Position numbers and translations under genes: made by a program. DNA of 39,075 nucleotides, from assembly GCA_904392525.1 (NCBI GenBank), contig CAJFMW010000010.1:1-39075 (forward strand), written 5' to 3'. The DNA comes from an uncultured Eisenbergiella sp. GTDB lineage: Bacteria > Bacillota > Clostridia > Lachnospirales > Lachnospiraceae. Below the pieces are notes generated by a model. The model saw only the letters and a program-made list of their open reading frames with translations. It was not told the origin of the DNA and ran no database searches. Position 1 is the first letter of the stretch; the number at the start of each line of letters is the position of its first letter. Of this stretch, positions 3,500 through 15,472 are shown piece after piece.

Positions 3500-3892
3500 T
3501 GAACCTTATAACTGCATACCCAGCGATTACAATACGTTAGCTGTATGAAGCGAGCGACGGGAGAGGATACGCGATGACTGCCTGCAGGAAAATGTGAAAA
3601 ATAAGACATCCAGGGTGAGAGCGGAAATATCCATTTTCAGAATCCTTTGTGGCAGAAGGATACCGCGATGACCCATGCAGCCTATCATGATACTTCCGCA
3701 TAGTCACAGACATCGCAATGAGTGCGGCGGCCAGAGATCCTGGCCGGGGTAAGACCCATGACGGATTGCCGAATCCGGTTGTAACCGACTGCCAGCTTCG
3801 GGGAGGAGTGCCGAACAGAAGCAATACGAAAAAACAAAAGGCTATTTTCATAAAATATTGGGCGGCAGTCTTTATGGCTGCCGCTGTTTTAA
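3500..3892 (+). ncRNA. Candidate structured non-coding RNA or long leader upstream of mazF
   Basis: No convincing CDS; hairpins such as CATA-CC-CAGC...GCTG-TATG (3514-3547), GGCCAG/CTGGCC (~3729-3745), CGGATT-GCCG-AATCCG (3762-3777); terminator-like stem 3862-3884. Confidence 0.35.
3862..3890 (+). terminator. Terminator-like hairpin between candidate ncRNA and mazF
   Basis: GCGGCAG-9 nt-CTGCCGC followed by TGTTTT. Confidence 0.45.
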
Positions 3893-3905: not shown

Positions 3906-4313
3906 ATGAGGTACAGAAGAGAAATACAGCGGGGAGATATTTATTATGCCAGTTTAAATCCGGTGATCGGAAGCGAGCAGGGAGGAATCCGGCCTGTTCT
4001 GATCATTCAGAATGATGTGGGAAACCGCCACAGCCCGGCGACCATTGTGGCTGCCATTACGGCGAAAATGAGAAAGCATCCTCTGCCTACTCATGTGTAT
4101 CTTCCGAAAGGAACGAGCGGCCTGAAACGAAATTCGACCATTTTGTTGGAACAGATCCGCACCATTGATCAGATCAGGCTGAAGGACTACATAGGCTATG
4201 CGGATGAGCAGGTCATGGAGCAGGTAGATAGTGCATTGGCAATCAGTCTTCAAAATGTCGGCTCAGGTAACTGCCAGCAGGACATGGACAGGAGGAATTG
4301 TCTTTGTTTATGA
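3906..4313 (+). CDS. Type II toxin-antitoxin MazF/PemK family toxin
   Basis: MazF hallmarks: QRGDIYYASLNPVIGSEQGGIRPVLIIQND...KGTSGLKRNSTILLEQIRTIDQIRL. Confidence 0.9.
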   Translation: MRYRREIQRGDIYYASLNPVIGSEQGGIRPVLIIQNDVGNRHSPATIVAAITAKMRKHPLPTHVYLPKGTSGLKRNSTILLEQIRTIDQIRLKDYIGYADEQVMEQVDSALAISLQNVGSGNCQQDMDRRNCLCL

Positions 4314-4500: not shown

Positions 4501-5619
4501 ATGAACCCGTATATGGTAAGCCGACAGAAAAAGGCCTCCCTTTTATTTTTTCAGATCCTTTACCGGGCCGATCAGTCGGTTGTAGTGTTGCCTACCAAAT
4601 ATCTGGCCTATAAAACCCGCGCCAATGCATCGCCCAATACGGTGAAAGAGATTGCATTTTCCCTCTGCTATTATTTAAACTACCTGGAATCCACAGATAT
4701 GAATGTGGGACAGGTCTTTGAACTGAAATTTGATGAACAGCACAGGCATTTCACTGATTTTTTGCGATGGCTGAAGCTGGGCTGCCATCTGGATAAGAGA
4801 AGAAAGAAGACGCCGAATAATGGGACATGCAATGCCTACCTGCAGGATGTGTTCGGCTGGTATCAATTTTTGGAAACGGAAGAAGAACAGTTTCAGGATT
4901 TGAAAGTGTTATCCAGCCATGTGGTATCCTTCGTCAATCCTGCCGGAATCCGGTTCCACCTGACCAAAAAGACATTTCGCGGCTACCTCCCGGAAGAGAT
5001 TCATAAAGGGAAAAGAATTGAAGAGGATAACATTCTCATCCTGCTGGAACATTGTACCAATCTGAGGGACCAGCTTTTGATTCTGCTTTTGGCGGAAACC
5101 GGCTTCCGGATTGGAGAAATGCTGGGTGTTTACTATACAAAAGACATCAACTATCAAAAACACAGTGTCCGGGTAAGCTTCCGGGAAGGAAATGAAAATG
5201 ATGCCCGTGCCAAAAATGCGGAGTACCGGGAAGCGGTCATCAGCCCGGAAACCTTCCGGATTCTGATGCTCTATTTGTCCGAGAACCGGGAACTGCTCAA
5301 AAAAACAGAGCATCTTTTTATTAATCTGTCCGGCCCGAATGCCGGAAAACCCTTAAATGCGAACGCTGTATATGCCATGATGGGCAGGCTGGAGACGAAA
5401 ACAAAAATCAAAGTGACTCCGCACATGCTCCGCCACTATTATGCAAAACAGAGGCGCGACAGTGGATGGGATATCTTTTTACTCTCCCAGGCCCTCGGGC
5501 ATCGGCATGTGGATACCACCAGACAGTATCTGGATGAGGAAACAGATAAGCTGGCAAAGACGGCGGAACAGTATTTCGATCAATACGGCAGTCTTCTCAT
5601 GGCGGATAAGCTTTTATAG
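4501..5619 (+). CDS. Tyrosine recombinase/integrase 1 (372 aa, TnpA-like)
   Basis: Catalytic motifs AETGFRIGEML, HMLRHYYAK, LGHRHVDTTRQYL. Confidence 0.92.
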   Translation: MNPYMVSRQKKASLLFFQILYRADQSVVVLPTKYLAYKTRANASPNTVKEIAFSLCYYLNYLESTDMNVGQVFELKFDEQHRHFTDFLRWLKLGCHLDKRRKKTPNNGTCNAYLQDVFGWYQFLETEEEQFQDLKVLSSHVVSFVNPAGIRFHLTKKTFRGYLPEEIHKGKRIEEDNILILLEHCTNLRDQLLILLLAETGFRIGEMLGVYYTKDINYQKHSVRVSFREGNENDARAKNAEYREAVISPETFRILMLYLSENRELLKKTEHLFINLSGPNAGKPLNANAVYAMMGRLETKTKIKVTPHMLRHYYAKQRRDSGWDIFLLSQALGHRHVDTTRQYLDEETDKLAKTAEQYFDQYGSLLMADKLL

Positions 5620-5644
5620 GCAGAAAAAGAAAGAAGGGGAATGG

Positions 5645-7603
5645 ATGGCGCAGAGGATTCTGGCACCCGCGGCAGAACGGCTGCGGGAGGATATGGCGGC
5701 CTGCCCTTACCTTTCGCAGAAAGCGGCTGATATGGTGGAGGATTTCCTTCGAAGAAAAGGAATCCGCTCGTTATCAGAGGTGACATTGGATGAAGAAATC
5801 GCCTATTTTCGATTCGCCAGTTTTCATCCGTTTTTATCCCCCAGGCAGCAGCGCTATTATGGCGGGGCGCTGGAGGCATACATGTTGTGGTATTTACGGC
5901 CGGGCTATGCTGAACTGGAACAGGAGATGCAGGAGTACGGCAGGCTTTCCAGGCCTGCTTTTAACAAGATTTATCAGTTTCTGATGATAAGCGGGATTCA
6001 CCGGCTGGATGAAATAGATTATGCTGTCCGCATGTCCTACGAGAGATATCTTTCCGAGTGCAGAATCCGCAAGGTGGGGGAGCATATAAAGATGCTTGAC
6101 TGGTTAAAGCTGGAAGCCATCAGAAAACACGAACATCCGATCAGGAAGGAACGGCTGGTATTGAAAGAGCAGCCCCTTTTTCTTTTATATCATCCGGATT
6201 ACCAGACGGCAATGCGCTTTTATTTTATACAGGACAAACAGGATCTGGTATTTGATTTTTCTTTTTCTGCCTCTTTGACTTTAAAGAAACAGATTTTTTC
6301 CATGCTGGAGGCTTCTCTGGAACTGGATATGAGCAATAAAGCGTACCGGGAGCAGTACCTGGTGCCGTTGAAAATGCTGTATCTGTACTGCGTGAAGGAA
6401 CAGGTCAGGGATATCGAACAGATGGAGCTTTTCCAGGCGGAAGGCTTCCGACGGTATCTGGAAGAAAATGCGGGCGGCAAAGCCGACAGCTATTCGCAGA
6501 TCCTGGGGAGGATGCGGAAATTCCTGTTTTTAAACCCGGCAAAAACCAACTGGAACGCCAATGTGTGGTATCTGGACCGGTTCCGCCTGAAGGGGGATCG
6601 GATGAATCCGGCAAGGAAGGTGGGAAGCTTTCATTTCTATTTGATTCAGGATCCGGAAAACCGGAAGCTGTTCCAGTTGTATATGAAATACTGCATCGGA
6701 ATCAGCAGCCGGTCCATGAACCGGATCCGGGCCGAATACTATAACATATATTTGTTTCTGCAGTATTGTGACGGGAAAGGGATCAAAGCAGCCCGCCTCT
6801 CCCCCCAGGAATTTGAACAGTATATGACTGCCGAGCAGGACAGACCTGTTCTGGCCGCCACCTATAACCAGCGGCTGGAGGATATCAATCATTTTTACCT
6901 TTACCTGCTCTCAAGGGGATATATCAGTAAGGTGCCTTTTATGACAGGCCTGTATCTGAAGAAGGCCATCCCAGTTCACCACGACCGATCCGTTCCGCCC
7001 GAAGTGCAGGGAGAGATCCTGGCCCACTTAAAAGATTTCCCGGAGGAACTGCGGCTGATGTATCTGCATTTGTGGTGTGCCGGGCTGCGGGTGAATGAGG
7101 TCTGCTGCCTGACCGGGGATGCTTATTCCTTTCGGTACGGGGTGGCGTGGCTTCAGGTCTATCAATATAAAATGAAACGGGAAAAAGTCATTCCCATACC
7201 GGAAACTCTCTACCGGCTGATGCAGGATTACATCCGCAAAAACCATCGTCTCCCCCGCGAATATGTATTCCAGGGGAAGGACGGGCAGGCCTATCCGGCG
7301 GGTACCTTCTGCATTCAGATGAAAAAGATTTGCCAGGAATATGGCATCCGCTGCGGGGACTATATTTTCCGGTCGCATGATTACCGGCATTCCGTGGCTA
7401 CCAGACTGTACGATGAGGGAGCTTCCCTGCAGGCGGTGCGGGATTTTTTAGGGCACTTGGAGGAAGATATGACCAAACAGTATCTGGATTATATTCCCCA
7501 GAAAATCAATGCGGCAAACGAAAGATATTTTGAAACGAACAGTCTGGCAGACAAACTGCAGAAGCGGAAAGAGGAAATGGAATGGAAAACCGTATCTATG
7601 TAA
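5645..7603 (+). CDS. Tyrosine recombinase/integrase 2 (~652 aa, TnpB-like)
   Basis: Motifs WCAGLRVNEVCCL, HDYRHSVATRLY, LGHLEEDMTKQYLDY; in-frame ATG at 5645 chosen over the longer ORF start at 5441, which overlaps recombinase 1. Confidence 0.9.
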   Translation: MAQRILAPAAERLREDMAACPYLSQKAADMVEDFLRRKGIRSLSEVTLDEEIAYFRFASFHPFLSPRQQRYYGGALEAYMLWYLRPGYAELEQEMQEYGRLSRPAFNKIYQFLMISGIHRLDEIDYAVRMSYERYLSECRIRKVGEHIKMLDWLKLEAIRKHEHPIRKERLVLKEQPLFLLYHPDYQTAMRFYFIQDKQDLVFDFSFSASLTLKKQIFSMLEASLELDMSNKAYREQYLVPLKMLYLYCVKEQVRDIEQMELFQAEGFRRYLEENAGGKADSYSQILGRMRKFLFLNPAKTNWNANVWYLDRFRLKGDRMNPARKVGSFHFYLIQDPENRKLFQLYMKYCIGISSRSMNRIRAEYYNIYLFLQYCDGKGIKAARLSPQEFEQYMTAEQDRPVLAATYNQRLEDINHFYLYLLSRGYISKVPFMTGLYLKKAIPVHHDRSVPPEVQGEILAHLKDFPEELRLMYLHLWCAGLRVNEVCCLTGDAYSFRYGVAWLQVYQYKMKREKVIPIPETLYRLMQDYIRKNHRLPREYVFQGKDGQAYPAGTFCIQMKKICQEYGIRCGDYIFRSHDYRHSVATRLYDEGASLQAVRDFLGHLEEDMTKQYLDYIPQKINAANERYFETNSLADKLQKRKEEMEWKTVSM

Positions 7604-9069
7604 GGGACTTGGACTGCTACCGGCTGGCCTCCGAAGAGGAACGATCCGGCAGGCTGGTGAGCCCTGACCGGTTTTTTGACCTGTCCCGGCTGCCAACCGA
7701 AGGGCTGCAGGATGAGTTTGGCGAATACCTGTGGAACAGGGGAAGGACGCTGTCCTTAAAAAGCATCCGTGCGGAGTTCTGGCCTTATCATGTGATCTGC
7801 CGTTTCCTCAGTGACCGTTATAACACGATGGAGAGCCTGCAGGAAGAGACGCCGGATGTGCTGGTGCATTCCCTGAAGGCCTGGATGATGAAAAACGGAT
7901 ATTCCCTCACCCAGACCCGGCGGCGTACCGAGTATGCCAAAACAGTGGTGCGGGATTCGGACATCATTCTTTTTTTGAAACGCGTGATTTCCTATTTTTG
8001 CGCGCCGGAAGAAAAGCAGGAGATGGAGAAAGACATCTGGAACCTGGACCGGATCGGGTTCCCGGTACGGAATAATCCGGTTCATCCGGTGTTTTCTGTG
8101 AATTTTACACGGATTCCCCAGAAGGGAATCCGGGAAGAAGTAAAGAGAGCATGCGCGGTAACTCTCCGTTATCTGGCTGCCGCTTCTGTGGCGGCGCAGA
8201 TCCATGCGGTGGACCGGTTGGCCGGGTTTTTGAAAACAGAATATCCCCATTTGCAGTCCCTGACGGAACTGGACCGGGAGATGCTGGAAGAATATCTGAT
8301 TGAGATCAATACCAGGGTGGAGGGGAAAAAATCCTTCCACAGCGAGCTACACCATGTGAAGAGCCTGCTGGATATGATCGGGAAGATCTATGAAAAGCCC
8401 GGCCTTTGCCGGATTTTTGTGGCGGGTGATATTCCACCTGCGGCTGCGTCGGAAAGAAAACCTTATTCAGACGGGGAACTCAGACGGCTGAATGAAGCCA
8501 TTATAGAAATGGATGAACAGTTTGCCCGCGCTGTCGTTCTGCATCAGATTCTGGGAAACCGGATCTCGGAAACGCTGACCTTAAAAAAGGACTGCCTGGT
8601 GCAGAGGGGCGCACATGCTATGGTGCGTGTGTTTCTGATCAAAACACAGAAAACCTGCGAAAAGCCTGTGACGAAAGAGGCAGTCCAGCTGATCCGGAAA
8701 TCCATTGCCTATACACAGGAAAAGTATGGGGATCGGGAATATATCTTTGTGGATGATAAAAATCCGGATCGTCCTCTGTCTTATGAAGCCGTACAGTATC
8801 GGATTATGGCCATGATCCGGGAAAAGGATCTTCGGGACGATCATGGCGAGCTATTTGGCGTGGGAACCCATCGGTTTCGGAACACTTTAGGACAGAGGCT
8901 GACACAGATGCATGTGGATGACATAACCATAGGGAAAATTTTGGGCCACAGCGGCACCAGATCCGTACAGTTCTACCGCCAATTTGGGAATCAGGCAATG
9001 GCAGAGGAAACCAAAGCGGCAAGAGCGTCCATGGATGAGGTGCTGGCCCAGCTGATACAGGGGTGGTGA
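7582..9069 (+). CDS. Tyrosine recombinase/integrase 3 (495 aa)
   Basis: Motifs HQILGNRISETLTL, GTHRFRNTLGQRL, ILGHSGTRSVQFYRQF; 22-bp overlap with upstream gene. Confidence 0.9.
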   Translation: MENRIYVRDLDCYRLASEEERSGRLVSPDRFFDLSRLPTEGLQDEFGEYLWNRGRTLSLKSIRAEFWPYHVICRFLSDRYNTMESLQEETPDVLVHSLKAWMMKNGYSLTQTRRRTEYAKTVVRDSDIILFLKRVISYFCAPEEKQEMEKDIWNLDRIGFPVRNNPVHPVFSVNFTRIPQKGIREEVKRACAVTLRYLAAASVAAQIHAVDRLAGFLKTEYPHLQSLTELDREMLEEYLIEINTRVEGKKSFHSELHHVKSLLDMIGKIYEKPGLCRIFVAGDIPPAAASERKPYSDGELRRLNEAIIEMDEQFARAVVLHQILGNRISETLTLKKDCLVQRGAHAMVRVFLIKTQKTCEKPVTKEAVQLIRKSIAYTQEKYGDREYIFVDDKNPDRPLSYEAVQYRIMAMIREKDLRDDHGELFGVGTHRFRNTLGQRLTQMHVDDITIGKILGHSGTRSVQFYRQFGNQAMAEETKAARASMDEVLAQLIQGW

Positions 9070-9524
9070 AGTTGAAAGCAGAAAAGATGGTACAGCTAAA
9101 CCGGGCTGCCAGCAGGGAAAAGGTAAGCAGGGCTCTTCGGGAAATCGACAGAATGCTGGAGGATGAGGAACTGGTAACGATTGCGGACCTGGTGGAACGG
9201 ACCGGACTTTCCAGAGCCTTTTTTTATAATAATAAGAAAGTGAATCAGGCGGTAGAACGGGCCAGGGATCTGCAGCAGGGCAGAAAGTTTGTAAAACCAC
9301 AGCAGGTGATTCTCGATCAGGCAATGGAACAGCAGATCCTGATGCTGAAAAAACATTTGGGGGATTTGCAGGAAGAAAACGCCGGTCTTATGAAAGAACT
9401 GGAGGAGCTCAGAGAGGAAAATATGGACTTGCAGATGGAGATTGACAGCTTGCGGGTGGAAAACGAAAGCCTGAAGGAAGATTCCTGGCAGAGGGAGATG
9501 CTGAGGATGTCACATAACCCTTAA
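9063..9524 (+). CDS. DUF6262 / Tn554 TnpC-like HTH coiled-coil accessory protein
   Basis: IADLVERTGLSRAFFYNNKKV HTH followed by long coiled coil; overlaps recombinase 3 by 7 bp. Confidence 0.75.
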   Translation: MVKLKAEKMVQLNRAASREKVSRALREIDRMLEDEELVTIADLVERTGLSRAFFYNNKKVNQAVERARDLQQGRKFVKPQQVILDQAMEQQILMLKKHLGDLQEENAGLMKELEELREENMDLQMEIDSLRVENESLKEDSWQREMLRMSHNP

Positions 9525-9991: not shown

Positions 9992-10016
9992 TCAAATACA
10001 GAGGAAGAGATTGGAC

Positions 10017-10919
10017 ATGAAATGTATTATATGTAAAGAAGAAAAAGGAGAATCTAAAGAACATATTATTCCGGAAGCATTAGGGAATAAAACATTAGTT
10101 ACCAAGAGAGTTTGTAAAGAATGTAATAATAAACTCGGCTCTAATGTTGATGATTGCTTAGTCAACAATTTTTATACAAAAATCGTTAGAATAAACTTCA
10201 ATTTGACAGGGAAAAATGGGAAACTACCTCGATTATTTAATGGGACTGAAGTTGATGGAAATACAAACTCGAAATTCAGTCTAAAAAACGATATTCCGAA
10301 ACTTTTACCTGCTGTAAATAAAGAGGAAGATGGAAATATAAGAGTCACGGCATCTAATTTGGAAGAGGCAATGGATTGCCTAAAGAAATATTTGTGGAGG
10401 AATGGATTTGGAGAGTCCCAAATAGAAAGAATTTGTGAAAGTGCTCAAATTGTTGAAAGGAAATTGGAGCCCCCAATATTTAGAGCTAAAAAGACAGAAT
10501 ATAATAAATTGAAGTTAGCGGCAATAAAAATAGCTTATGAATATGCATTTCACATTCTGGGAGAAAAGTATTTGGATGATGAAATAGCCATACTTTTTTC
10601 AAATGAGCTTTTCAAAGCAACAAAAGAGAAAAAAGGGGAAGTTGTTCCATCTGATGAGTTGATGAAATTTGTTACCTTTCCGAATGAGGTAGACAGGAAG
10701 AGATTTGAAGGGATACGTAATTCATTAAGTTTCAAACCAATGGGTATTCTTAACATAATAAACTTATGGTGTGATGGTAATATTATATATTGCGATTTAA
10801 ATTTATGTAGGACAGATATTTGTTCATTTGTTGTAAAAGTGTCTGAAAATGCGAATTCTTATTCTAAAAAATTGCCGGTTACATTGATATCGGAGGATGG
10901 TGAGACTTATAGTTGGTAA
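10017..10919 (+). CDS. HNH endonuclease-like protein (HNH_5-like, 300 aa)
   Basis: CIICKEEKGESKEHIIPEALGNKTLVTKRVCKECNNKLGSNVDDCL: CxxC...EHIIPxxLG...CxxCNxxxG; ATG at 10017 preceded by GAGGAAGAG. Confidence 0.8.
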   Translation: MKCIICKEEKGESKEHIIPEALGNKTLVTKRVCKECNNKLGSNVDDCLVNNFYTKIVRINFNLTGKNGKLPRLFNGTEVDGNTNSKFSLKNDIPKLLPAVNKEEDGNIRVTASNLEEAMDCLKKYLWRNGFGESQIERICESAQIVERKLEPPIFRAKKTEYNKLKLAAIKIAYEYAFHILGEKYLDDEIAILFSNELFKATKEKKGEVVPSDELMKFVTFPNEVDRKRFEGIRNSLSFKPMGILNIINLWCDGNIIYCDLNLCRTDICSFVVKVSENANSYSKKLPVTLISEDGETYSW

Positions 10920-11542
10920 TAGGAATAGGTTGTAGAGAAAATATTTGCGTGAAATAGTTAGAATATTTGTTTATAGGCTGTTATTGAATTATTCATAATG
11001 GCCTTTTCTTAATTGTAGCTTAGGGATTGAAGTAAAAATATTTATACCGATTTTACCGAAAAAATAAAAAAGTATACATGTACGACATAAAACTACTCGT
11101 ATAGGAAAATGAAACAGGAAATATCTTCAGAAAAAAATGGTGAAGAGAAAGGAAAAGGAAGCCAGAGAACTGTACCAGTGAACAATCACGAAGGGCTCAT
11201 AGGATCTCAGTGAATCTATTAACTGACGTTTATAGACGGTAAGGATATAGGAAATTAAGGCGTTTAGCAAATAGTGCTGTACCAGAAAGCGAGCCGGGGA
11301 TTGATGGAAACGTTGGAGAGATATACGAATGGACCGGTCAATCAAATAAAAGTAGAAGAGGTGATAAAATGTTAAGCATATTGAATATGGCAAAAAGCGA
11401 AAAGATTACCGAAAAAAAGTAAAGACGACGGATATCAAAAATAAATAGGAAAATAGACTTGCCATTACTTTCTTAATTATAGTATTGGACGACAGATTAT
11501 GATAAAATATATTCAATACAGCTCGTTCGATAGGAGAAGGTT

Positions 11543-12811
11543 ATGGCATTAATAAATAGATCAATAGTGGAAAATATTGAAGCTAAATATATTGAAACAT
11601 ATCTTATGCAAAAAGGATTTAAGAAAGGCGACGAAGAAGAAGGAATATCAGTAGTAGATTGGGTGAATAATCTTCTTGATGAAAATAAAATTGATATAGA
11701 TGAATTTGAAAGATTTTTGTTTCATGAGTTATTCTTAGGGAAACGGAAATTAATTCGAGTATACCAACTGGGTAATACAAAAAAGATCAAATTCCCAGAA
11801 GATTGGATTGACATACTGGTAGAGAAGTATGGAGTTGCTTCTCTAGATTTTAGCGCTATTTTAAGTACATTTGTTAATTCTAAAAATAGAATAAAAATAG
11901 CCGGAATTCGTTCGGAAGAAAATGAGAAAGGGGAGTTGACAAGATTACGAATTTTATTTGTAATCTTGATAGAAGTGTATGAAGGGGGAACGTATAGGGA
12001 TTCATATGCATATATACCTGTTGACATCGATTTTATCAAAAGAATCATGCTCATAAAGGTGTGGAATAGATACGGTATACCAGATGAAAATCAACGGCCA
12101 GAAGCCTTGCTTGATCATATAAAAAGTATAATGGCATTACTATTTCATGTTTCAACGAGACGTTATATGATGAAGCATAAAAAAGTGCTCTATAATATGA
12201 GCAAGGGAATGGTTGATGAAGTTTATAATAAAATACCTGCATTTAGTCAGATATCTATTTTGGAAAGCCTTATTAGTGATTTTGAACAAGAGATTTTGTC
12301 GAGATTGCCTATAGTAAATACGGATATTGATGAAAATGGGAAGAAAGTAATTCCAAAGGGAGTGATGGAATTTTCGGATGAAATTAGAAAGGCTTTGGAA
12401 CGATTAGCTATAAGTGACTATTTTTATAATAGAAGTTATGACGAAATCTGGAATATGGGAGTGGATGCAGTTATAGCTAGAATTAAGTTTAATGATAATG
12501 AAAATGTTCTTACATCGTTGAGTGGTGAAGAAAGCGAAAAGCCCATTTTTTGCACTAAGACCTTTATGTACCTAAAAAAGTCTATGGAGGATTCAAAGCT
12601 GGTTGAAAGATTATGGGTTGCCAAAAAAAGAAATAGGGGTACGTTAAATATTAGATATGATGCTACAGATGAAGAATATCTTGAAATAATGATTAGATCA
12701 ATAATAAGATACACAGAGGAAGATTTGGAAGCGGCATTGGAGATATATAAAAACTATGAATCAAGATCTACTAAAACGATTACAAAAAACGATAAAAGAA
12801 ATGTCAGTTAA
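11543..12811 (+). CDS. Uncharacterised protein (422 aa), first gene of an overlapping pair with a TIR-like effector
   Basis: Long ORF with GGAGAAGGTT-ATG start; ends overlapping the next gene; no family recognised. Confidence 0.8.
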   Translation: MALINRSIVENIEAKYIETYLMQKGFKKGDEEEGISVVDWVNNLLDENKIDIDEFERFLFHELFLGKRKLIRVYQLGNTKKIKFPEDWIDILVEKYGVASLDFSAILSTFVNSKNRIKIAGIRSEENEKGELTRLRILFVILIEVYEGGTYRDSYAYIPVDIDFIKRIMLIKVWNRYGIPDENQRPEALLDHIKSIMALLFHVSTRRYMMKHKKVLYNMSKGMVDEVYNKIPAFSQISILESLISDFEQEILSRLPIVNTDIDENGKKVIPKGVMEFSDEIRKALERLAISDYFYNRSYDEIWNMGVDAVIARIKFNDNENVLTSLSGEESEKPIFCTKTFMYLKKSMEDSKLVERLWVAKKRNRGTLNIRYDATDEEYLEIMIRSIIRYTEEDLEAALEIYKNYESRSTKTITKNDKRNVS

Positions 12812-13619
12812 TAGTTTGAATAGCGTTTATCCAGAGCAATTATTAGAATGGTTAAATACGCCACAGATGGAATTAAAACAGTTTATTGATGATTTATATT
12901 GCGAAAGATTGATTACATATAAATATAAATTTACGTGTAGATGTGGACAGCATTGTACTGCTTACTTACGCAAATTACAAAGGGAACCATATATCTGTAA
13001 GGATTGTGATTCGGTTTATGACATTGAGAAAATAAAGAAAATTGGAACATTAGTATATGAACTTGACAAGAAGGATATTTTGGAATTTAATGAAGAAAAT
13101 GTTGATTTTGAAAATGAATCATTAAAATTTGCCAGAATTGTTTGTTTGGATACGCAACATCAAAAGGAAAGGGAGTTGAAAAAACAAATGGAAATTTTCT
13201 TAGGTAGTTCATCAGAGGCAATAGCAGATATGGAAGATATTGGATATAAATTAGAGCAGTTAGGAAATAGGGTATTATTATGGAATTCTGCTGGAGAAAA
13301 TATTTTTCCTCCTAATGAAAATACAATAGATAGTTTACTTGCAATTACTAAACGAGTACAGGCTGCAGTTTTTATCTTTAATGCAGATGACGTGGTATGG
13401 CACCATAATTCTTTAAAAGAAAGCAAGAGCGTTAGAGATAATGTTCTATTTGAATATGGTCTTTTCTGTGGAGCATTAGGAAAATCACGAGTTTGTTTTG
13501 TTTGTAAGAATAATCCATCTCTTGCATCTGATTTATCTGGAATTACATATATAGATGGTAATAGCGGTGCTCTTACCGTAAAACGTAAGTTGCAAGATTG
13601 GATAAATGCAATGCAGTAA
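12756..13619 (+). CDS. N-terminal wHTH/zinc-ribbon plus C-terminal TIR-like (CAP12/Pycsar-effector-type) nucleotide-binding domain
   Basis: FTCRCGQHCTAYLRKLQREPYICKDCDSVYD zinc ribbon; MEIFLGSSSEAIADMEDIGYKLEQLGNRVLLWNSAGENIFPPNENTIDSLLAITKRVQAAVFIFNADDVVW...SVRDNVLFEYGLFCGALGKSRVCFV matches the predicted TIR-like family (PF10137 type). Confidence 0.82.
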   Translation: MNQDLLKRLQKTIKEMSVNSLNSVYPEQLLEWLNTPQMELKQFIDDLYCERLITYKYKFTCRCGQHCTAYLRKLQREPYICKDCDSVYDIEKIKKIGTLVYELDKKDILEFNEENVDFENESLKFARIVCLDTQHQKERELKKQMEIFLGSSSEAIADMEDIGYKLEQLGNRVLLWNSAGENIFPPNENTIDSLLAITKRVQAAVFIFNADDVVWHHNSLKESKSVRDNVLFEYGLFCGALGKSRVCFVCKNNPSLASDLSGITYIDGNSGALTVKRKLQDWINAMQ

Positions 13620-13634
13620 ATATTGGGGTAAGAA

Positions 13635-13684
13635 AAAAAGACCAACTATGTTTGGGCAAATGCAAAAACATAGTTGGTCTTTTT
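13635..13684 (+). terminator. Rho-independent terminator after the TIR gene
   Basis: Perfect 19-bp inverted repeat AAAAAGACCAACTATGTTT (13635-13653) / AAACATAGTTGGTCTTTTT (13666-13684). Confidence 0.92.
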
Positions 13685-13914
13685 ACGTCCCATAATAAGC
13701 CCTCCTGTTATTCTAAGCAAGAAAACATTTTTTATAAGTATAGCCTTCCGTACTAAAATAAAAAAATTAAATTGAAAAGCTACAAATAATAAGGTATAGG
13801 AGATTCTAAAAATGGTCGTGAATAGTAGTAGCTATACCAAGAATAGGATATACATTGTATTTTGAGTAAAATATAGGATTTTACAAGAAAAAATATTAAG
13901 CAGTAAATATTTTT

Positions 13915-14013
13915 CTGGTGCTGATCGGCCTGGTCATTATCTTCAAGAGCCAGCTCACCGATCTGGTTGAGAGCATTTTTACCAAAATCACCAAGCAGGC
14001 CGGAACCATCTGA
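13915..14013 (+). pseudogene. C-terminal remnant of a Flp-type (type IVb) pilin, truncated by the mobile element
   Basis: LVLIGLVIIFKSQLTDLVESIFTKITKQAGTI* in frame to TGA at 14011-14013, with a stop just upstream (13897-13899) and no start codon. Confidence 0.7.
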
Positions 14014-14032
14014 GAGAAAGGAGGGGACGAAC

Positions 14033-15472
14033 GTGAAATGCGGCTATATTACGGTTTACCTGTCGCTGGTGACGGGAGTTCTGCTGTCGCTGATCCTGAC
14101 GGTGGTTGAGGGCGTTCGGCTCCACACCATGCGCGCACAGACAGAATGTGTGATGGATATGGCGATGGACTCCGCACTGGCGGAATATCATAGAGAGATG
14201 CTGTCCCAATATGATCTGTTTTTTGTCGATATTTCATATGGAAGTTCGTCCCCCACCTTTGCCAATGTAGAAGAGCATATCAGAGGCTATATGAATATGA
14301 ATTTTCAGCCCTTTGAAGTGTTTGATATTCCGGTGGGAAAGGATCTGACGGCCCTGAACGCAAATGGAGTGGAGCTTTTACAGGCTGCGGTTGCTTCAGA
14401 CGACGGAGGTGCGGTACTGAAACGACAGGCGGTGGATTATATCAAAAACCGGTGGGGCTTAAGCTATCTGAATCAGGCTGCAGTAAATGCCGAGGTGCTG
14501 GAACGCAGGGGGTATCTGGACAGCGATGTGGAGCAGCGCAGAACGGAAACGGAGCGTCAGGTAAAGGAAAGGATCCTGCAGAAGCAGCAGGAGGAAGACG
14601 AGGACTGGGAAGGACGTAACGTGGAACTGCCTTCGGATGTGGTGAATCAGGCGAGAGGAGAGGGAATTCTCGGGCTTGCGTCCAGCCGTCCGGGAGAACT
14701 GTCCAGAACTTCGATCCCCGTGCAGACGCTTCTGTCACACCGGAGCAGTCTGATTCAGGGAACCGGCCTACCGGAAGAAAAAACGAAGCCTTCCGGTATA
14801 TCGGGAAACTGCCTGTTTCTGAAGTATGTCATGGAAAAATGCGGCTTCTACGGAGAAGAAAAGGAGCATGCTGCCTTCTCCTATCAGGTGGAATACATTC
14901 TGGAGGGGGATGGAAATGATCTGAACAATCTGCGGGCCGTGGCAAATAAAATTCTTCTCGTCAGGGAGGCGGCCAATGCGGCATATCTGTTCAGCGACAG
15001 CGCCAGGCGGGAACAGGCGAGAGGAACGGCGCTTCTGATCAGCTCCGTTCTGGGCCTTCCTGAACTGACTGAGCCTGTCACCGCCCTGATCCTGTTTGCA
15101 TGGGCCTATGCGGAAAGTGTACGGGACCTCCGCATTCTGTTCGATGGAGAAAAGGTTCCTTTGGTAAAAACAGCCGAAAGCTGGAATACGCCGTACAGTC
15201 AGCTTCTTACCTTCCGCGGCCATCTGTCGGAATATACGAAGGGGCAGAGCGGTATGAGCTATCAGGATTATCTGGGAGCATTCCTGTATCTGCAGCAGGA
15301 GGAAACGACATTGAAACGGCTGATGGATGTGATGGAGGCTGATATCCGTATGACACCGGGAAATGAAAATTTCCGGATGGACGGCTGTGTGGACGCGATA
15401 ACGGCACAGGCCGCAGTGGAAAGCGGCTATGGCCGCAGCTTCCAGATTACCCGGACCTATCAGTATGAATAG
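14033..15472 (+). CDS. DUF5702-like protein of a Tad/Flp-like pilus locus
   Basis: GTG start after GAAAGGAGGGG; MKCGYITVYLSLVTGVLLSLILTVVEGVRLHTMRAQTECVMDMAMDSALAEYHREMLSQYDLFFVD is typical of this family. Confidence 0.75.
   Translation: MKCGYITVYLSLVTGVLLSLILTVVEGVRLHTMRAQTECVMDMAMDSALAEYHREMLSQYDLFFVDISYGSSSPTFANVEEHIRGYMNMNFQPFEVFDIPVGKDLTALNANGVELLQAAVASDDGGAVLKRQAVDYIKNRWGLSYLNQAAVNAEVLERRGYLDSDVEQRRTETERQVKERILQKQQEEDEDWEGRNVELPSDVVNQARGEGILGLASSRPGELSRTSIPVQTLLSHRSSLIQGTGLPEEKTKPSGISGNCLFLKYVMEKCGFYGEEKEHAAFSYQVEYILEGDGNDLNNLRAVANKILLVREAANAAYLFSDSARREQARGTALLISSVLGLPELTEPVTALILFAWAYAESVRDLRILFDGEKVPLVKTAESWNTPYSQLLTFRGHLSEYTKGQSGMSYQDYLGAFLYLQQEETTLKRLMDVMEADIRMTPGNENFRMDGCVDAITAQAAVESGYGRSFQITRTYQYE

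Follow-up and report, generated by a model that had tools for sequence, protein, structure and literature searches.

Two overlapping genes in a 39,075-nucleotide contig of an uncultured Eisenbergiella sp. (the whole stretch analysed, hereafter the window) probably form a translationally coupled, RexAB-like abortive-infection module, in which a DNA sensor with an RdgC-type fold would free a nucleotide-depleting effector via an adaptor; we put the probability of this reading at about 60%. The pair is conserved and overlapping, combines a fixed adaptor with an exchanged effector, is under purifying selection, lies in mobile or defence-rich surroundings and begins with a protein of RdgC-like predicted fold, and we infer that it serves in phage defence. 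The features concerned, all on the + strand, are as follows.

4501 to 9524, +: three tyrosine recombinases (372, 720 and 495 aa; PF00589 three times) and a DUF6262 protein (PF19776), in a Tn554-like layout
11543 to 12811, +: gene 1, a 422-aa sensor candidate with a predicted RdgC/RexA-like fold, from its 13-member family
12732 to 12758, +: a motif resembling a ribosome-binding site (GGAG) within gene 1, before the ATG at 12756, read from the sequence
12756 to 13619, +: gene 2, a 287-aa adaptor-TIR protein, from its overlap with gene 1 and PF10137
12756 to 13130, +: adaptor region of gene 2, a helical, possibly winged-helix segment and a zinc ribbon, from the adaptor alignment
13194 to 13556, +: TIR domain of gene 2, residues 147-267, Cap12/PycTIR type (PF10137 CAP12-PCTIR_TIR, E 7.9e-28)
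13452 to 13454, +: codon of the predicted catalytic Glu233 in RDNVLFEYGLF, from alignment to Cap12
13635 to 13685, +: intrinsic terminator 3' of the pair, a stem and then a U-run, from folding

A sequence-only reading of this DNA had proposed two open reading frames overlapping by 56 nt, followed by a strong terminator and carried as AT-rich cargo, and all of this was borne out. Both frames are present at 11543-12811 and 12756-13619 with the 56-nt overlap, and translation of gene 2 may thus be coupled to that of gene 1, judging from the sequence. That reading had also allowed a start at the ATG at 12801, with an overlap of 11 bp; the one at 12756 is more likely, since the N-terminus read from there, MNQDLLKRL, aligns with MKQELLKKL and MKQNLIKKI of the homologues, and a start at 12801 would delete this conserved part. 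The 63-nt stretch 3' of the pair is the one that folded as a strong terminator (hairpin 13635-13685, -29.2 kcal/mol, z -8.0); this hairpin escaped a consensus terminator scan, probably owing to an interruption in its loop. The GC content of the pair is 31-32%, compared with about 47-53% in the transposase/recombinase genes and flanks. Where measurable, dN/dS was 0.12-0.25 for both genes, indicating purifying selection, with the sensor gene at 0.12 against its homologue in G183, the closest relative.

The pair is cargo of a Tn554-like element. Using Pfam we established the gene order in the window as three tyrosine recombinases, DUF6262, HNH_5 and then the pair, with DUF5702 downstream, and we likewise saw no cyclase, STING, SAVED or Argonaute gene among the neighbours, as had been claimed. 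In G183 (Lachnospiraceae, locus L013) the pair lies directly behind another Tn554-like recombinase set, without an HNH_5 gene in between. Between the two elements, identity is 41-49% for the transposition proteins and 63-64% for the proteins of the pair. Nucleotide homology between them (70%) is limited to 11498-13612, which is almost exactly both genes, so these two move together as a unit.

Several further observations concern these surroundings. The HNH_5 endonuclease gene (10011-10919, 32% GC, TTG start) between the recombinase set and the pair is probably further cargo, and the roughly 600 bp of AT-rich DNA 5' of the pair (10920-11540) lack a plausible gene and may contain relics of an earlier insertion. 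An apparent C-terminal end of a Flp-pilin-like gene (13919-14014) occurs just before DUF5702 (13967-15472), which suggests that the right end of the element falls within a Tad pilus locus. The pair of G619 (L063) likewise adjoins tadA/B/C-like genes; a shared insertion site was rejected, the sole significant junction similarity being the TIR gene itself. Elsewhere in the window an Rfam pemK RNA (3684-3761; RF02913, 51.5 bits) is found directly 5' of a 135-aa ORF (3906-4313) that reads as a PemK/MazF-like toxin, and in G183 a 201-aa nucleoside-phosphorylase-like ORF (L013:969-1574; PF01048 only at E 0.05) is convergent with the pair.

We sought relatives of the sensor with a protein search of 299 family genomes and a profile search of 392 order genomes. 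Eight further genomes (about 1-2%) carry a real homologue; another two relatives came from genome contigs, one from a viral contig and one from a Priestia flexa plasmid, giving 12 relatives at 64% to about 18% identity, from Lachnospiraceae, other families of the order, the plasmid and the viral contig. The scan of genome contigs returned no relatives with a single-sequence query and five with an alignment query. The class-level genome sample yielded no homologue beyond the window's own, and no new relatives emerged when viral sequences were scanned with the sensors of Priestia and of the PNP type or with the TIR protein of the window. Weak matches in G024, G133 and G153 (L006, L007, L030) were judged to be noise by the family HMM. 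Profiles of the sensor subgroups align to one another over nearly their full length (hhalign 97-99.9%), except for the Priestia/G363 and PNP-type groups, which score 4.7% directly and are joined via other groups. Shared motifs are YIPVDIDF (about residues 157-164) and IKFND...PIFCTKTFM (about residues 314-342).

The case that homologues of the two genes rarely co-occur, raised with the original proposal, does not apply, as an adaptor gene follows the sensor at 13 of 13 loci (the window and 12 relatives), always overlapping it, by 32-86 nt. The CxCxxxC...CxxC zinc ribbon claimed for gene 2 is real, except that C67, the third Cys of CxCxxxC, is not conserved in the family; C61, C63, C81 and C84 are the only invariant residues across the 13 adaptor regions. 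The segment called wHTH-like had no Pfam match and may form an HTH-like N-terminus. Searching 295 order genomes with the adaptor only gave matches at E<1e-30 in five genomes, all sensor-bearing, with the next-best match at 6e-8. Most matches at E 1e-8 to 1e-3 were set aside as generic zinc ribbons, because they cover little beyond the ribbon.

The effector end of gene 2 proved to be a TIR domain of the CAP12/Pycsar-effector type, as proposed, scoring 97.3 bits for PF10137 against a gathering cut-off of 24.7. PADLOC matched it to TIR effectors and PycTIR, and among PDB sequences it matched Cap12 (9lmq, E 1.2e-17; 7un8, 7.4e-11) and PycTIR (8jsj, 7.5e-6). Its motif RDNVLFEYGLF lines up with the Cap12 sequence RDNVVFEFGLF, and the Glu233 of this motif would be the catalytic residue. 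A PF10137 TIR C-terminus is present in the window, G183, G264, G619 and a Dorea MAG (the last two placed in this group from alignment), and both G446 and the viral contig have divergent PF10137 "FIVHGHD" forms. In other relatives the effector domain is swapped on the constant sensor and adaptor, for a TIR_2/ThsB-like domain in G176 and IMSAGC_005 (PADLOC ThsB, E 1e-55 and 6e-53) and for PNP_UDP_1 in G415 and G355 (E 1e-11 and 3e-12), which probably cleaves ATP or nucleosides. In G363 and Priestia the adaptor has no fused effector and is followed by a separate, overlapping third gene. These third genes (Priestia L032:9776-10348 and L067:11058-11612) encode proteins of 184-190 aa with hydrophobic N-terminal segments and no family match, and by eye they are apparently membrane proteins. 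Such exchange between loci is expected of a sensor/effector conflict system. As an observation on the domain itself, PF10137/PDC-S35 TIRs at L100-L108 sit on many N-termini (AlbA_2-like, response-regulator-like and others), reflecting wide TIR shuffling, and a sensor gene is lacking at eight other PDC-S35 loci, where a related TIR is joined to different N-termini. With the adaptor constant, the C-terminus varied and PDC-S35 TIRs sensor-less elsewhere, sensor and adaptor therefore make up the fixed pair and the effector the variable part.

A possible HTH-like N-terminus and a zinc ribbon in gene 2, with recombinase genes alongside, could also describe a regulatory pair, in which a zinc-ribbon DNA-binding protein with a nucleotide-sensing TIR-like domain controls the mobile element. 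We give this hardly any credence, as the C-terminus is exchanged for unrelated enzymes, the TIR retains its predicted catalytic Glu and the pair also occurs outside Tn554-like elements. Copies of the pair adjoin type I restriction-modification genes (G264), a type III restriction endonuclease fragment (IMSAGC_005), NERD-UvrD and type IV restriction endonuclease-like genes (viral contig L024), a PDC-S05 gene (Dorea MAG) or a restriction endonuclease-like gene (G355). Surroundings of this kind are consistent with defence, in a small sample without a background rate. They also bear on an addiction module akin to toxin-antitoxin pairs, where gene 1 would restrain a toxic TIR or PNP protein and so stabilise a transposon, prophage or plasmid with no anti-phage role. 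An overlapping two-gene layout, nucleotide-depleting C-termini and carriage on Tn554-like elements, a plasmid and a viral contig would all suit such a module; however, several copies adjoin restriction systems, the effector is the second gene and is large and multi-domain, the sensor exceeds the size of a typical antitoxin, and immune modules typically exchange their effectors while the sensor stays the same. We regard an addiction module as unlikely and favour the abortive-infection reading.

The sensor had been described as an unrecognised partner. This stands in that searches of Pfam, PADLOC, NCBIfam and PHROGs place the 422-aa protein in no named system and, like a search of PDB sequences, give it no match of substance, a match to Phage_connect_1 having been rejected (E 5e-4, under the gathering cut-off, 58 residues, absent or weaker in relatives); it no longer holds for the predicted fold, which resembles RdgC. 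The AlphaFold2 model (pLDDT 82, pTM 0.81) had E. coli RdgC as its best Foldseek match in the PDB (2owl, E 2.2e-4, probability 1.00), followed by CENP-N, of the related IML3/CHL4 fold, and in the viral structure library BFVD the top match was named "recombination-associated protein", the RdgC name (E 6e-5). A second model, of the 24% identical sensor from viral contig L024 (pLDDT 78), placed RdgC first and second in the PDB (2owl 2.8e-4, 2owy 3.1e-4; probability 1.00), although the two models are not fully independent because they were built from the same twelve sequences. CorA matches were dismissed as helix-bundle noise (weaker E, probability up to 0.57, TM about 0.13), and RexA was absent among the 50 PDB matches listed. 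RexA, RdgC, IML3 and CHL4 have been grouped in one DNA-binding fold in the 2024 RexA structure paper (PMC11077077), and an RdgC-like predicted fold, as in RexA, would bring the pair near abortive infection of the RexAB type.

The same module might instead have a sensor that binds no DNA, with a spurious or merely architectural match to RdgC and a phage protein or something else as the cue. TM-scores of both models to RdgC are low (0.30-0.43) and the Foldseek E-values modest (2-3e-4), although low TM-scores could be expected if domains are shifted relative to each other. There is also no sequence-level link: the sensor profile was not significant against 33 RdgC sequences (hhalign probability 0.6%), showed no homology to RexA (0.0) and had no RdgC family match in Pfam. 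The failure against RdgC says little, because RexA and RdgC, which crystallography has shown to share a fold, fail the same hhalign test. Furthermore, DNA binding by RexA does not parallel its exclusion of phages (PMC11077077). Against this, RdgC was the top match of both models and of both structure libraries, with CENP-N of the related fold also matched, and the mostly acidic pI of the sensor family is no argument against DNA binding because RdgC, itself acidic (pI 5.3), binds DNA. On balance a sensor that ignores DNA seems somewhat unlikely, and we retain an RdgC-fold DNA sensor as the preferred reading.

RexA is the sensor of the RexAB abortive-infection system of phage lambda. We compared the pair with this system and with the RexAB-type systems of the Pseudomonas putida P1 prophage, Sbash and CarolAnn. 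Like these two-gene prophage or mobile immune modules, the candidate module has a separate effector protein, its sensor may have an RdgC-type fold as RexA does, and two relatives only, Priestia and G363, share the apparent membrane effector. Unlike RexA (279 aa), the sensor here is about 420 aa and has no sequence similarity to it; in the window a zinc-ribbon adaptor carries a soluble TIR as effector, whereas RexB is a membrane channel, and the effectors of the present family are interchangeable. RdgC itself, the best structural match in both libraries, has no effector partner, is about 120 aa shorter and lacks significant profile similarity.

Cap12 (the CBASS TIR-STING) and PycTIR (Pycsar) share the PF10137 TIR and the RDNVxFExGLF motif, but the window pair has no STING, cyclic-nucleotide-binding domain or cyclase gene. 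No CD-NTase is adjacent, the neighbours being recombinases, HNH and DUF5702; gene 2 scores 71.8 bits against a cut-off of 450 for the NCBIfam Cap12 equivalog NF050172, its TIR being C-terminal and without STING; and there is no adjacent PycC cyclase, with only the TIR part matching PycTIR. The partner showed no ThsA-type SIR2/SLOG domain in PADLOC or Pfam, and no short Argonaute match by Pfam, PADLOC or fold. By sequence, the pair is not a member of RexAB, CBASS, Pycsar, Thoeris or SPARTA. The PADLOC candidate PDC-S35 matches the TIR part of gene 2 (E 6e-17) over residues 191-271 only, and its match extends along most of two divergent relatives, L024 and L026; however, it is listed as a single gene, and most such proteins have other N-termini and no sensor, which rules it out as an account of the whole pair. 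The PNP part of the G415/G355 effector resembles Detocs/PNP effectors (PADLOC PDC-M60C, E 8e-60), but is carried on the zinc-ribbon adaptor behind an RdgC-like sensor and not by the gene set that makes up Detocs. Among open-licence papers on RdgC/RexA with TIR, PDC-S35 and RdgC-like or RexA-like abortive infection, we found no description of the pair.

In RexAB-type systems, RexA-like DNA-binding sensors trigger a membrane effector (PMC12894663). By analogy, the gene 1 protein would dimerise around or along DNA and respond to a state of the DNA brought about by phage, for instance ends or intermediates of replication or recombination. The helical and zinc-ribbon adaptor of gene 2 would dock on the sensor and keep the C-terminal TIR inactive; once triggered, TIR domains would assemble and cleave NAD+, halting the infected cell. 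The earlier model of a sensor with an NAD+-depleting TIR is plausible. Effectors of the relatives would act differently, the PNP by depleting ATP or nucleosides and the membrane protein on membrane potential. A TIR could alternatively make a nucleotide signal for another protein, without NAD+ depletion, as in a Thoeris-like split. TIR domains are able to make signals and two relatives have ThsB-like TIRs, yet no ThsA-like receiver lies beside any copy examined and the PNP and membrane variants do not suit one signalling scheme, making this very unlikely beside direct depletion by the effector.

The pair may thus resemble RexAB in how it works, with effectors known from other systems, and there is a real chance that it forms a class of its own. 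That this would be a modular immunity class, with an RdgC-fold DNA-clamping sensor, a constant zinc-ribbon adaptor and interchangeable effectors (Cap12-type TIR, ThsB-like TIR, PNP and membrane protein), is a tentative proposal with not quite even odds. If true, RexAB, long seen largely as a phage lambda system, would be one version of a wider modular scheme that joins a DNA-binding sensor of RdgC/RexA fold to killing domains of very different kinds, and a recombination/centromere DNA-binding fold would be linked to NAD+/ATP-depleting immunity. What RexA-type sensors detect would then be testable by a soluble read-out, NAD+ loss, as against membrane leakage. A constant sensor and adaptor with a variable effector would likewise provide a rule for predicting function, covering family-less proteins of gut Firmicutes.
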